A stretch of DNA of 64,000 nucleotides, taken from the NCBI RefSeq assembly GCF_900168055.1, contig NZ_FUYS01000002.1:434888-498887 (forward strand), given 5' to 3'. The notes beneath the pieces were generated by a model, which had not been told where the DNA came from, searched no databases, and was given only the letters and a program-made list of their open reading frames with translations. This document shows, in pieces, positions 23,001 to 49,756 of this stretch (position 1 is the stretch's first letter; each line of letters opens with the position of its first letter). This DNA comes from Parapedobacter luteus (lineage in GTDB: Bacteria; Bacteroidota; Bacteroidia; Sphingobacteriales; Sphingobacteriaceae). The position numbers were made by a program, and so were the translations under genes.

Positions 23001-25257
23001 TACGCCATCGGCGGGGGTGGAAGTTGTGGACAATGTCATCACCGTGGACAATACAGGCTACCAGGACTTGGCCGGAAATGCGGGGGCAGGAACGTCGGAT
23101 TCTGACCGCTACGCCATCGATACCAAAGGCCCGACGGTCATTACACAACATATCACCGTTTACCTGGATAACGACGGCATGGTAAGTATCCTTCCGCAGC
23201 AAATAGACAACAACAGTACGGATGGCTTCGGTATTGCCAGCCTCGCGCTTAGCCAGACAGACTTCGACTGTGGCCAGTTGGGCGATAATGCCGTGACGCT
23301 GACGGCTACCGATGTGAACGGCAACGTGGCGAGCGCCGATGCGATCGTGACCGTGGTGGACAGCACGGTGCCGGTGGTGCGTACCCGGGACATCATCGTT
23401 TACCTCAATGCGTCCGGCGCGGTAAGCATCGCCGCGGCAGATATCGACAATGGCAGCTCGGATGCGTGCGGCATTGCAACCGTCACGCTTGACCGGGCCG
23501 ACTTCGATCGTAGCCATTTGGGCAATAACACCGTGACGTTGACGGTCACTGATGTGAACGGCAACGTGGCGCGTGCTGATGCAACCGTGACCGTGGTAGA
23601 CAATATCGCTCCTGTGGTCACTTCGACGGATGTGCCGGCCAACGGTTATTACCGCGAGGGGGATGTACTGGACTTCATAGTGAATTTCAGCAAAACCGTA
23701 ACGGTTGATGAAAATGCGGGCACACCGTATATGGAACTTACTGTGGGCATGGCCACCGTGCGGGCAACTTATGCCGGTGGCTCGGGCAGCGATGCCCTGC
23801 AATTCAGCTACATGGTCCGGGCGGGCGATCAGGATATGGATGGCATCGCCGTGGGTGGTTCCATCGTGCCGGACGGCGGCACGGTACGGGATGTGGCAGG
23901 CAACGATGCGGCAATGGAACTGATTAACGTGGGCAATACAGGCGGGGTGCTGGTCAATACGACGCATCCTGGTGTCGTACTCACCACGACGGCCGTATCG
24001 CCGGTAGATGGGCCGTTCACTATTTCGGTTGCTTTCAGCGAGGCGGTGACCGGATTTACGCTCGACGACCTTACAGCGGTGAACGCTACCCTCAGCGGTT
24101 TGCAGACAACAGACTATATCACGTATACCGTTTTGGCGACACCGTCAGCGGGGGGCACGGTGCGGGTGTCGGTTCCGGCTGGTGCGGCTGTCAATGTCGC
24201 CGGTAATGGAAACGGTACATCTAATGTGTTGGATATACAGTATAACCAGACAGTCACGGGCGTCACACTGGCAGGTCGCAGCTTCGTGTACGACGGTACG
24301 GCCAAATCACTGGCCATCACGGGAACATTGCCCGTGGGTACGTCGGTGCGCTATGCGGGCAACGGCCGCACCGAGGTGGGAAGCCAGACGGTGACGGCCA
24401 CCATCAGCGGCAGCAACTACGAGACGCTGGTACTGACGGCGGAGCTGACCATCACACCGGCTGTGCGGAGCATCGATTTTCCGCCGCTGCCGGAAAAGGC
24501 GTACGGGGATGCGGACTTCGTTGGGGGTGCTACGGCGAGCAGCGGGGAGGCGGTAAGCTATACGAGCAGCAATACGGCGGTGGCTGAAGTGGTGGCCGGT
24601 GGGCGCATCCGCATCACCGGCGCGGGAAGCGCCACCATCACGGCGACGGTACCGGAGAGCGGCAACTACAGCAACCGGCCGGAGGTGAGGCGCGAGCTGA
24701 CGGTCCGGCGGGCACAGCAGTCGATTTCCTTCAGTGCGCCGGCGTCTGTACACCGCGATGCGGGCAGCATCGCGCTGGAGGTATCGGCCTCAAGCGGTCT
24801 GCCGGTGAGCCTGGCCGTCGACGATGGGCAGGTGGCTACGGTGGAGGGCACGGCGCTGCACATCCACCGCCTGGGCACGGTAACCATCACGGCCACGCAG
24901 GGGGGGGATGCCAACCATGAGGCGGCGGCGCCGGTGGCGTTGACGGTACGGGTCACGGACCCTTCGTCGGACTTTCCGGTGCGTGTGCACCCTGCGGTAT
25001 CGCCCAACGGGGACGGCATCAACGAGTTCCTGATAATCGAGGGTATCCGTGATTACCCGGCCAACCGGGTGAAGGTATTCAACCGCAACGGTACGGTGGT
25101 GTGGGAGGCCAGCGGGTATGACAACGACCGGGTGGCGTTCCGGGGCATCGGCACGGGGCAGCAGCGGCTGCCTGCCGGCACGTACTTCTACATCGTGGAA
25201 ATCGGCAGGGGTGGCGGCACGGAATACCGGAGGGGCTATTTTGTATTGAAGTATTGA
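20062..25257 (+). CDS. Giant T9SS type B cargo, repeat-rich adhesin-like protein
   Basis: A 1731-residue exported protein; the start is taken at MKNFYSAF because a signal peptide follows (ending VSAQ, residue 28). Rough layout: residues 30-180 a beta-rich N-terminal domain; 190-580 cadherin/VCBS-like repeats (VNNAPVVTVPASITVTEDE, VNDAPVNAVPAAQSVDQDG); 585-1390 Ig-like blocks in a duplicated order; 1396-1470 an MBG-type domain (FVYDGTAKSL); 1471-1630 two bacterial Ig-like domains; 1643-1731 the gliding-motility-associated C-terminal domain (VSPNGDGINEFL...VKVFNRNGTVVW...LPAGTYFYIVE), which directs export by T9SS. It resembles SprB-like filaments or adhesins. The PorP/SprF-like gene just downstream is the usual partner of such C-terminal domains. 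Long antisense frames here are composition artefacts. Confidence 0.9.
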   Translation: MKNFYSAFPKGIVFVALLWAGLSQVSAQVVFRETFDTNPIGATPQTSFEVTHQGVLFDMVFTSEGDGGDIAWDHVGGYENSPSINFNSASDNLVTREVVTITRRDGADFLFVALYIDNTAEPVTVQGFKDGNAVAGSLRTVPTGDKAVLDFGGVLVDEVKISADDFFLTIIDGVFLNYPPEITTSGGTTTFTESVSGGPVPVVIDNGLTVSDPDNTTLASATVAITGNFQIVEDVLGFTNDGVNMGNITGSYNAATGTLTLASAGATATLAEWEAALRAVTYSNTSEDPNVATRTISFVISDGTDDSAPATKSVAVVAVNNAPVVTVPASITVTEDEASPLSGISFADVDAGTGLVTATFSVPSGSLAATSGGGVTVGGTASALTLTGTIADINAFIAASGVTYTTASNATADVTLTVTINDNGNTGSGGAHEDTTTVTLEVTAVNDAPVNAVPAAQSVDQDGILVFSTGNGNVISVSDVDAGGGTIQVTLTATNGLLTLGSTTGLLFTVGDGAADGTMTFTGTIAAINAALNGLAFVPAAGYNGLASLQISSNDLGLTGAGGPQEANDTISITVNPISPIVNAVGASSPDGMYKVGDVVSLTVAFDQVVMVDESGGKPGLLLETGSTDREAVYVSGSGSNMLTFAYTVQAGDASADLDYASTAALALNGGTIQNAAGLDAVLTLPATGGANSIAGQHAIVIDGVAPEVTSVAVPADGYHVAGDALDFTVHFSENVTVDATGGRLHLEVTIGTAVVQAGYVSGSGSNALVFRYVVQAGEVDLDGIAVSGSLVLNGATARDAAGNDALPALNNVGTTTGVLVYAVRPSVTLSTPVSSPVNAPFTVSAVFSEAVTGFTAADINATNATVANLQTSDNITWTALVSPAADGVVSVQVPENVAVNIGSNLNTASNILDVSYDNTAPTVAIALSQTLLRDGDSMLVTLTFSEPVIGLANADITTPNGTLTPIGSADGGITWAAAFTPSAGVEVVDNVITVDNTGYQDLAGNAGAGTSDSDRYAIDTKGPTVITQHITVYLDNDGMVSILPQQIDNNSTDGFGIASLALSQTDFDCGQLGDNAVTLTATDVNGNVASADAIVTVVDSTVPVVRTRDIIVYLNASGAVSIAAADIDNGSSDACGIATVTLDRADFDRSHLGNNTVTLTVTDVNGNVARADATVTVVDNIAPVVTSTDVPANGYYREGDVLDFIVNFSKTVTVDENAGTPYMELTVGMATVRATYAGGSGSDALQFSYMVRAGDQDMDGIAVGGSIVPDGGTVRDVAGNDAAMELINVGNTGGVLVNTTHPGVVLTTTAVSPVDGPFTISVAFSEAVTGFTLDDLTAVNATLSGLQTTDYITYTVLATPSAGGTVRVSVPAGAAVNVAGNGNGTSNVLDIQYNQTVTGVTLAGRSFVYDGTAKSLAITGTLPVGTSVRYAGNGRTEVGSQTVTATISGSNYETLVLTAELTITPAVRSIDFPPLPEKAYGDADFVGGATASSGEAVSYTSSNTAVAEVVAGGRIRITGAGSATITATVPESGNYSNRPEVRRELTVRRAQQSISFSAPASVHRDAGSIALEVSASSGLPVSLAVDDGQVATVEGTALHIHRLGTVTITATQGGDANHEAAAPVALTVRVTDPSSDFPVRVHPAVSPNGDGINEFLIIEGIRDYPANRVKVFNRNGTVVWEASGYDNDRVAFRGIGTGQQRLPAGTYFYIVEIGRGGGTEYRRGYFVLKY
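22188..23955 (+). repeat. Internal segmental duplication in adhesin gene
   Basis: Block A (about 22188-22530; VPADGYHVAGDALDF, DLDGIAVSGSLV) recurs as block A' (about 23618-23955; VPANGYYREGDVLDF, DMDGIAVGGSIV). Block B, beginning at about 22540 (FSEAVTGFT, ATVANLQT), recurs at about 23965-24245. Between them lie two tandem copies of a third unit. Confidence 0.75.
23140..23618 (+). repeat. Tandem 240-bp repeat encoding HYR-like units
   Basis: Two adjacent copies (about 23140-23378 and 23380-23618) encode IDN.S.D..GIA...L...DFD...LG.N.VTLT.TDVNGNVA.ADA.VTVVD. Base identity is high at the ends of the units. Each copy has only one of the two cysteines usual in this unit. Confidence 0.75.
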
Positions 25258-37160: not shown

Positions 37161-37234
37161 GCGCCTATAGCTCAGTTGGTTAGAGTAGAAGACTCATAAT
37201 CTTTTGGTCCCTGGTTCGAGCCCAGGTGGGCGCA
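37161..37234 (+). tRNA. tRNA with anticodon CAT (Met, or Ile2)
   Basis: 74-base cloverleaf. The acceptor stem GCGCCTA pairs with TGGGCGC, and the discriminator is A. The D stem is GCTC/GAGT, the anticodon stem GAAGA/TCTTT with loop CTCATAA, and the T stem CCTGG/CCAGG with TTCGAGC. CCA is not encoded. The anticodon CAT could belong to elongator tRNA-Met or to the lysidine-modified tRNA-Ile; it is not an initiator tRNA, because the three G:C pairs of the anticodon stem are missing. Confidence 0.93.
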
Positions 37235-37240
37235 CTAGAC

Positions 37241-49246: not shown

Positions 49247-49263
49247 GCGGAGAGTGAGGGATT
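49247..49263 (-). repeat. Partial copy of tRNA-Ser 3' end
   Basis: GCGGAGAGTGAGGGATT (17 bases) is identical to the sequence at 49426-49442 covering the 3' end of the tRNA-Ser gene, 179 bases away in the same orientation. Such copies are left by elements that integrate into tRNA genes. Confidence 0.7.
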
Positions 49264-49305
49264 ACCTTCATCTCGTTTCGGTGATCCCTTGGAGGGGGGG
49301 CTGCT

Positions 49306-49320
49306 CAAGCAAATGAAGCC
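49306..49320. repeat. 15-bp inverted repeat with 49411-49425
   Basis: CAAGCAAATGAAGCC is the exact reverse complement of the sequence at 49411-49425 directly downstream of tRNA-Ser. Confidence 0.7.
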
Positions 49321-49390
49321 ATTCGCTTCGCTCATTCCTTTTTCCGTTTATCGCTGCATCGCACAAGCAAGCTTGGCTTGCCTGCAAACG

Positions 49391-49412
49391 AAAAAACCCC
49401 GCTATTGCGGGG
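49391..49412 (-). terminator. Terminator of tRNA-Ser
   Basis: CCCCGC-AATA-GCGGGG followed by TTTTTT on the minus strand, 15 bases after the tRNA. Confidence 0.85.
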
Positions 49413-49426
49413 CTTCATTTGCTTGG

Positions 49427-49511
49427 CGGAGAGTGAGGGATTCGAACCCCCGGTCCGGTTAAGGACAACGGTTTTCAAGACCGCCGCATTCGACCACTCT
49501 GCCAACTCTCC
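49427..49511 (-). tRNA. tRNA-Ser (TGA)
   Basis: An 85-base type II tRNA with a long variable arm. Acceptor GGAGAGT pairs with ACTCTCC, discriminator G as usual for serine, and the anticodon loop reads TTGAAA with TGA. The T arm has GGTTCGAATCC. CCA happens to follow in the genome (49426-49424). The promoter lies just upstream. Confidence 0.95.
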
Positions 49512-49679: not shown

Positions 49680-49753
49680 GCGCCCATAGCTCAGTTGGAT
49701 AGAGCAACGGTTTTCTAAACCGTCGGTCTTAGGTTCGAATCCTAATGGGCGTA
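49680..49753 (+). tRNA. tRNA-Arg (TCT)
   Basis: A 74-base tRNA. Acceptor GCGCCCA pairs with TGGGCGT (first pair G-T), discriminator A, D stem GCTC/GAGC, anticodon stem ACGGT/ACCGT with loop TTTCTAA (anticodon TCT), and T stem with GGTTCGAATCC. CCA follows in the genome (49754-49756). Confidence 0.95.
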
Positions 49754-49756
49754 CCA

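Follow-up and report, generated by a model that had tools for sequence, protein, structure and literature searches.

A family of short, gene-free, hairpin-rich elements at tRNA and tmRNA 3' ends in Parapedobacter and some relatives, with an RtT-like layout

The interval between two copies of a tRNA-Ser(TGA) 3' end in Parapedobacter luteus is one copy of a family of ORF-free, hairpin-rich elements of approximately 196 bp that lie at tRNA and tmRNA 3' ends. The window, by which we mean the whole 64-kb stretch of DNA analysed here, belongs to a genome of 4.83 Mb (G000) and carries tRNA-Ser(TGA) at 49424-49511 on the minus strand. Two genomes of its genus, G003 and G078, contain stretches identical to named loci of P. 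soli and P. koreensis. As originally noted, a 17-mer covering the 3' end of this tRNA (GCGGAGAGTGAGGGATT) occurs twice, identically and in direct orientation, at 49247-49263 and 49426-49442; the spacing is 179 and the interval between the copies is 162 bp. These are the only two exact matches in the whole genome; with two mismatches allowed, two more places appear, and a backwards-pattern control returned none. Within the window, exact 17-mers recur less than 400 nt apart at one further place (23311/23551), where an exact direct repeat of 21 nt, 240 nt apart, spans 23311-23571. The 15-bp inverted repeat noted originally is likewise exact (CAAGCAAATGAAGCC / GGCTTCATTTGCTTG, at 49306-49320 and 49411-49425); the suggestion that it joins the same two places as the direct repeat did not hold, as one arm abuts the tRNA copy and the other is separated from the distal copy by 42 nt. 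By eye, no such element lies behind either tRNA-Met (37161-37235) or tRNA-Arg(TCT) (49680-49756) of the window.

Along the tRNA strand, the tRNA 3' end is followed by a 15-nt arm, the terminator, a second hairpin and a hairpin with a GNA loop, and then by the second 15-nt arm, which is complementary to the first. Beyond it come a C-rich box, the GGGAT foot, another short hairpin and the second copy of the tRNA 3' end, beginning at the T-loop AAT. The individual features are as follows.

49424-49511, minus strand: tRNA-Ser(TGA), whose 3' part is the target (tRNA call)
49426-49442, minus strand: proximal repeat of the tRNA 3' end, within the working tRNA and running from AAT of the T-loop to one base beyond the discriminator (repeat comparison)
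49411-49425, minus strand: closing stem, 5' arm (inverted repeat and own-site complementarity test)
49393-49416, minus strand: intrinsic terminator of the tRNA, a hairpin and T tract, inside the element (consensus match)
49339-49396, minus strand: long second hairpin, in which the T tract pairs with an A tract (fold)
49364-49377, minus strand: GCCAAGCTTGCTTG, loop motif of the second hairpin (similar loop motifs in other units by eye)
49321-49336, minus strand: small GNA-loop hairpin AATGAGCGAAGCGAAT (fold; near-identical motif at two places in the tmRNA array)
49306-49320, minus strand: closing stem, 3' arm, the inverted repeat (repeat comparison and complementarity test)
49289-49305, minus strand: C-rich box AGCAGCCCCCCCTCCAA, compare GAAGCCTCCCCC of other units (comparison by eye)
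49284-49288, minus strand: foot GGGAT, complementary to ATCCC in the 3' half of the T-stem (sequence, pairing test and fold)
49264-49283, minus strand: short core hairpin, second type (CACC...GGT), missed by the core model (sequence and fold; by eye, L057 and L099 have cores like it)
49247-49263, minus strand: distal copy of the tRNA 3' end, then outward TACAAAGGAATT, a weak match to the G028 flank (repeat and flank comparison)

The stretch from arm through terminator to arm folds better than 200 of 200 shuffles (z -4.8, DNA parameters), and an RNA fold gives z -3.1. Taken alone, the core hairpin folds no better than shuffles in the window element (z -0.26) or in the Pro core (z -0.18), and modestly better in P. 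soli (z -2.2).

Searching the genome with its own interval matched the tmRNA element at 70% over 169 nt (E 9.9e-9), a match that takes in the tRNA end, and the tRNA-Pro region (76%, query 181-274, E 6.5e-8), together with pieces of two other tRNA-Ser genes. On reading, the parts recur in the same order: behind tRNA-Pro(CGG) of the same genome, the 3' end and terminator are copied in direct orientation, and an inverted arm and core hairpin are present; the tmRNA has three cores and tRNA-Arg(CCG) two units in tandem. Tandem units behind one tRNA or tmRNA also occur at other loci, including six cores behind the tmRNA of Olivibacter XZL3 and an array of 195 bp x 2.8 (L134), the window holding a single unit. 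The exact core pattern, sought in one genome per species across 84,980 species, was present in seven stretches, all from Parapedobacter or Olivibacter. At E 0.01, a covariance model of the core, built from 16 sequences, gave 27 hits in 7 of the 9 genus genomes; at E 1e-4 it gave 63 across the family, spread over 17 of 301 genomes and 3 of 25 sampled genera. With up to three mismatches the core pattern matched in 7 of 201 family genomes, one place in the source genome (L038) looking like chance; the gapped exact type II pattern, too strict to gauge how frequent that type is, matched in 1 of 201 (G007). The short hairpin of the window element (L072) is not itself matched by the core model, and membership of the family follows from its sequence match to the tmRNA element, the order of its parts and its spacing. 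No known Rfam family matched the core, and the literature search returned no description of the present family among the matches listed.

A related core-only repeat of about 45 bp (CTCGATGCGG...GACGCATCA) was seen at L052 (1501-1535), L063 and L067 as weak core-model matches away from tRNAs. In G057 this repeat lies twice, by eye apparently in frame, inside a thiolase-like gene, and in G087 an array (L057:1150-1650) holds several different core hairpins, each preceded by a C-rich box, with no tRNA found nearby.

The position of the elements is regular. When the 63 hits were grouped by hand into 47 sites, a tRNA or tmRNA lay on the same strand within 600 nt upstream at 38, and at 35 of these the tRNA 3' end was 122-134 nt from the model start (the other three distances are 14, 48 and 58 nt, the last measured from the foot). 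The window element gives 125 nt by the same measure, by arithmetic on its coordinates. Targets comprise Ser (TGA, GCT, GGA), Leu (GAG), Pro (GGG, CGG, TGG), Lys (TTT), Arg (CCG) and tmRNA. Judged by eye, six of the nine tRNA-less sites (L028, L065, L120, L134, L141, L142) start with the 3' part of a tRNA cut in or near the T-arm, just the acceptor part in L065, and L049, L057 and L143 have no such part; the former look, from their sequence, as they might at the far end of an island. At 20 of 43 sites the tRNA end recurs distally with 13 or more of 16 nt identical; the other 23 have no copy that good. All 20 copies start with AAT, at offsets of 117-349 (median 196), the window matching 16 of 16 at offset 179. 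At a threshold of at least 11 of 16 nt, copies are found at 29 of 43 sites versus 5 of 41 control stretches.

The arms of the closing stem vary strongly between sites and mostly match within a site, with a mean score of 12.5 within versus 5.9 between sites, a value not reached in 20000 permutations. This test covered 17 units, 24 having been tried and 18 parsed, with XZL3 left out for want of a second hairpin; in three of the 17 (SerTGA_G068, ProGGG_G078 and, narrowly, SerTGA_G003) the unit's own arm was not the best match. Furthermore, the foot tracks the T-stem of its target, GGGAT accompanying ATCCC, AGGAT accompanying ATCCT and CAGAT accompanying ATCTG: across 25 elements, with the register set by eye, 117 of 125 positions pair against a permutation mean of 106, and none of 20000 permutations was as high. 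The core helix also covaries, with 95.2% of cells paired and 49 double-change cells compared with 11 in shuffles and 1-6 in slid controls, in an alignment fitted to the model; further pair types are not above shuffles (391/500). For the core loops, 22 of 24 of which were parsed, clustering was not significant, whether by genome (352 of 5000 shuffles reached the observed value) or by target (572 of 5000), so that concerted or recent spread within genomes, as gauged by this clustering, was set aside.

Comparison of filled and empty sites places the units ahead of native flanking DNA at two loci. For Ser-GGA, G068 has a unit and G000 none; the flank of G000 scores 88 against the distal flank of G068 and 22 against the proximal, the best of 2000 shuffles being 46. 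For Ser-TGA, Olivibacter sitiensis has a unit and G087 none, with a distal flank score of 152 against 40 in shuffles and a proximal score of 19. Since the distal flank of the filled site matches the native flank of the empty one, the unit and a tRNA 3' end appear to have entered or left precisely at the T-loop; the shared distal flank in O. sitiensis may be an island end, because a serine recombinase gene adjoins it. The window's own distal flank matches that of G028 weakly, over 9 nt only (37 and 27 of 2000 shuffles as high for the two copies). On reading the Ser(TGA) orthologues of the genus (15 of 21 tRNA-Ser loci chosen from 27 could be oriented and read), units are present in G000, G003, G057 and G068; those of G078 and G045 are degenerate, and G028, G093 and G087 have none.

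The explanation to which we tentatively give most weight is that this folded, ORF-free family of approximately 196 bp is specialised for tRNA and tmRNA 3' ends and behaves as a miniature site-specific element moved in trans. A unit would occupy the tRNA gene from the middle of the T-loop, supplying a tRNA 3' end together with its own terminator; the original 3' end and native flank would then lie behind the unit, which would account for the direct repeat. Insertion and excision would be site-specific, as for a miniature integrative element mobilised in trans, and a recombinase using the T-loop may take the end formed by foot, hairpin and AATCC as its recognition structure. Against this mobile reading, the closing stem and the foot are locus-specific, unlike those of a plain inserted cassette.

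Several candidates for a partner or vector were considered and rejected. Phage_int_SAM_5 (PF13102) integrases are absent from the element-rich G000 and G068, and number eight in G028 and five in G093, neither of which has core-model hits; integrase counts thus do not track elements as they would for a required partner. Across nine genomes, with elements tallied by hand, the Spearman correlation between the two counts is -0.56 (p 0.11), and -0.83 without G003, an omission chosen after the fact. Units and islands may compete for tRNA ends. Mobilisation by a Y1/RAYT transposase, as for REP/RAYT or IS200/IS605 derivatives, was unsupported, as no intact Y1 transposase was found in the nine genomes of the genus, G087 having one copy with stops. 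In viral contigs, the type I core pattern matched one stretch (L100), the core-only repeat pattern one (L101) and type II none; both matches read as seemingly chance ones within coding sequence, arguing against a virus as vector. A plasmid vector was likewise discarded, matches to a P. soli unit covering at most 20% of the query in 12 records.

Among known systems, islands at ssrA in Dehalococcoides share the same starting point, inserting at mid T-loop (PMC3146451); those islands carry genes, many with serine recombinases, unlike the present units, which have no ORF. Casposons, recognised by a Cas1-like casposase and terminal inverted repeats, bear comparison only in duplicating a tRNA-end target. 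REP/RAYT palindromes are also short palindromic repeats, sometimes inside genes (PMC3733652), but the present elements target tRNA ends in a genus with no intact Y1 transposase, and their stem and loop sizes are unlike those of the REP CGTC class (8-9 bp stems and 4-5 nt loops).

In layout, the elements resemble RtT (Rfam RF00391), in which rttR lies behind tyrV/tyrT in E. coli and behind tRNA-Ser in other strains. A tandem repeat behind E. coli tyrT was reportedly described in 1978, and we know of no clear origin or function for it. In E. coli, tyrV is followed by 178-bp repeats in 3.1 copies, where RttR is annotated; the units restart at AATCCTTCCCCCACCACCA in the T-loop, hold an inverted foot GGGGAAGGAT and carry the tRNA end again in inverted form (22 nt, 86%). 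The present family similarly lies directly behind the tRNA, at some loci in tandem, each unit restarting at the same T-loop point (AATCC...), and places an inverted copy of T-stem and acceptor as a foot ahead of a hairpin-rich stretch. The motif GGATGAGAA...GGTTCGA...AATCC is common to RtT, the Arg-type units and L124. The differences are that the window unit lacks the GATGAGAA motif, that neither a closing stem nor a C-rich box was seen by eye in E. coli RtT, and that the present family has more target genes. The RtT covariance model, which does match E. coli L114 and the prophage end L159, gave no match in 12 Sphingobacteriaceae loci (E up to 5 or 10), and the window holds no RtT at the Rfam gathering threshold; hence, we describe the elements as RtT-like in layout and do not class them as members.

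This GGATGAGAA...GGTTCGA...AATCC motif was also present in 16 stretches of viral contigs, seven of them with two to four matches approximately 166 bp apart. In three of the seven (L147, L150, L159) the array follows what resembles the 3' end of a tRNA-Ser and adjoins an apparent integrase end; the other viral contigs with the motif in tandem are L149, L152, L158 and L160. ARAGORN called no whole tRNA at the viral arrays. A lone match may be fortuitous, and several of the stretches with just one look like coding sequence. One viral array has matches in 5,334 of the 5,426 genomes of E. coli, and eight E. coli records among the matches listed, one of which was inspected, have annotated RtT beside tRNA-Ser. 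It is tempting to speculate that gene-free mobile elements of approximately 0.2 kb find T-loops via a self-complementary foot-hairpin end, and that enterobacterial RtT is a distant branch of them, a wider proposal that we regard as doubtful.

An alternative takes the elements as RNAs that act in cis or are processed, RtT-like products freed from tRNA or tmRNA primary transcripts and kept for an RNA function. In its favour, RefSeq lists the counterparts in E. coli as rtT, an sRNA that arises by processing of the tyrT transcript; compensatory pairing in both the core helix and the closing stem, as well as the RNA fold score, also favour it. Conversely, a terminator-like hairpin precedes most of the folded part, whose transcription would therefore require read-through; there are few G-U pairs (8 cells in helix 1), and some congeners, on reading, have no element at the orthologous tRNA. 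We consider an RNA role of this kind unlikely as the explanation for the family.

The units might instead be a by-product of replication, in which template switching at hairpins (tandem inversion duplication) yields direct, inverted and direct copies of the tRNA end and flank, and palindrome correction keeps the arms alike. The order of the parts is in keeping with this, being direct (tRNA end, arm), inverted (arm, foot) and direct (tRNA end), as are arms that are locus-specific yet matching and the inverted tRNA-end copy of the E. coli units; models of inverted triplication have been published (PMC4689423). Locus-specific arms are the least explained feature of the family, and template switching could keep them alike. 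Nevertheless, on its own it leaves unaccounted for the conserved core and C-rich box at unrelated tRNAs and the spacing of 122-134 nt, making it an improbable account of the whole.

The tRNA-Ser 3' end does serve as an island site, in agreement with the original view of the direct copy as attachment-site-like. Comparison of relatives at this locus, which that prediction had called for, revealed a repeat-bounded island in one congener: of the eight congeners compared, only G028 carries GGAGAGTGAGGGATT exactly a second time, at a distance of 1,707 bp from its orthologue of this tRNA. The insertion (L113, G028:C21:50450-52171) is a decayed island between direct repeats that take in the tRNA end; it contains genes for an HTH protein and a YoeB-type toxin and, by eye, the start only of an integrase-like ORF. 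Integrase-like ORFs, again by eye, lie behind Ser(TGA) in the more distant G001, G004 and G210 as well, and in G003 two displaced elements adjoin an integrase ORF and a partial one (an arm-binding domain cut by the contig end). The 162 bp of the window differ from the island found at the orthologous tRNA.

CIMEs are defined by having attachment-like repeats at each side and lacking an internal integrase gene, and the window unit resembles CIME/IME remnants in both respects. The tRNA 3' end is duplicated with native flank behind the distal copy in two locus pairs, and weakly so (9 nt) in the window; an integrase encoded by the element or of neighbouring-island type was absent from G000 in the PF13102 search. 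CIME/IME remnants at tRNA genes (review PMC5704250) are among the closest known systems, but near-constant length, covarying folds and a multi-locus family are unlike such leftovers. The decayed island of G028, which this repeat bounds at the orthologous tRNA, together with the whole and partial integrase ORFs beside the displaced elements of G003 would suit an interior-deleted, CIME-like remnant of a larger integrase-coded island at tRNA-Ser; the same short architecture at many tRNA types in 17 genomes, and a near-constant length with covarying stems not expected from random deletions, render that origin highly improbable. The original claim that the element was gone or deleted, leaving 160 bases, is therefore replaced: those bases are themselves the element, its architecture recurring behind other tRNAs of the same genome and in 16 other genomes with near-constant spacing, and with this homology within the genome, spread of the family and constancy of spacing an island deletion scar was rejected as the main reading.

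Taken together, a family that is arranged like RtT but belongs to another phylum, occurs at tmRNA and many tRNA genes, has stems that covary and offers two pairs of filled and empty sites makes the origin and function of RtT testable. Movement of the units, the enzyme involved and any effect on island integration or on tRNA and tmRNA 3' processing can all be put to the test. Repeats of a tRNA end are not always the scars of lost islands. Should the units prove to be gene-free mobile elements of the T-loop, they would, at approximately 0.2 kb, be the smallest site-specific integrative elements to our knowledge.
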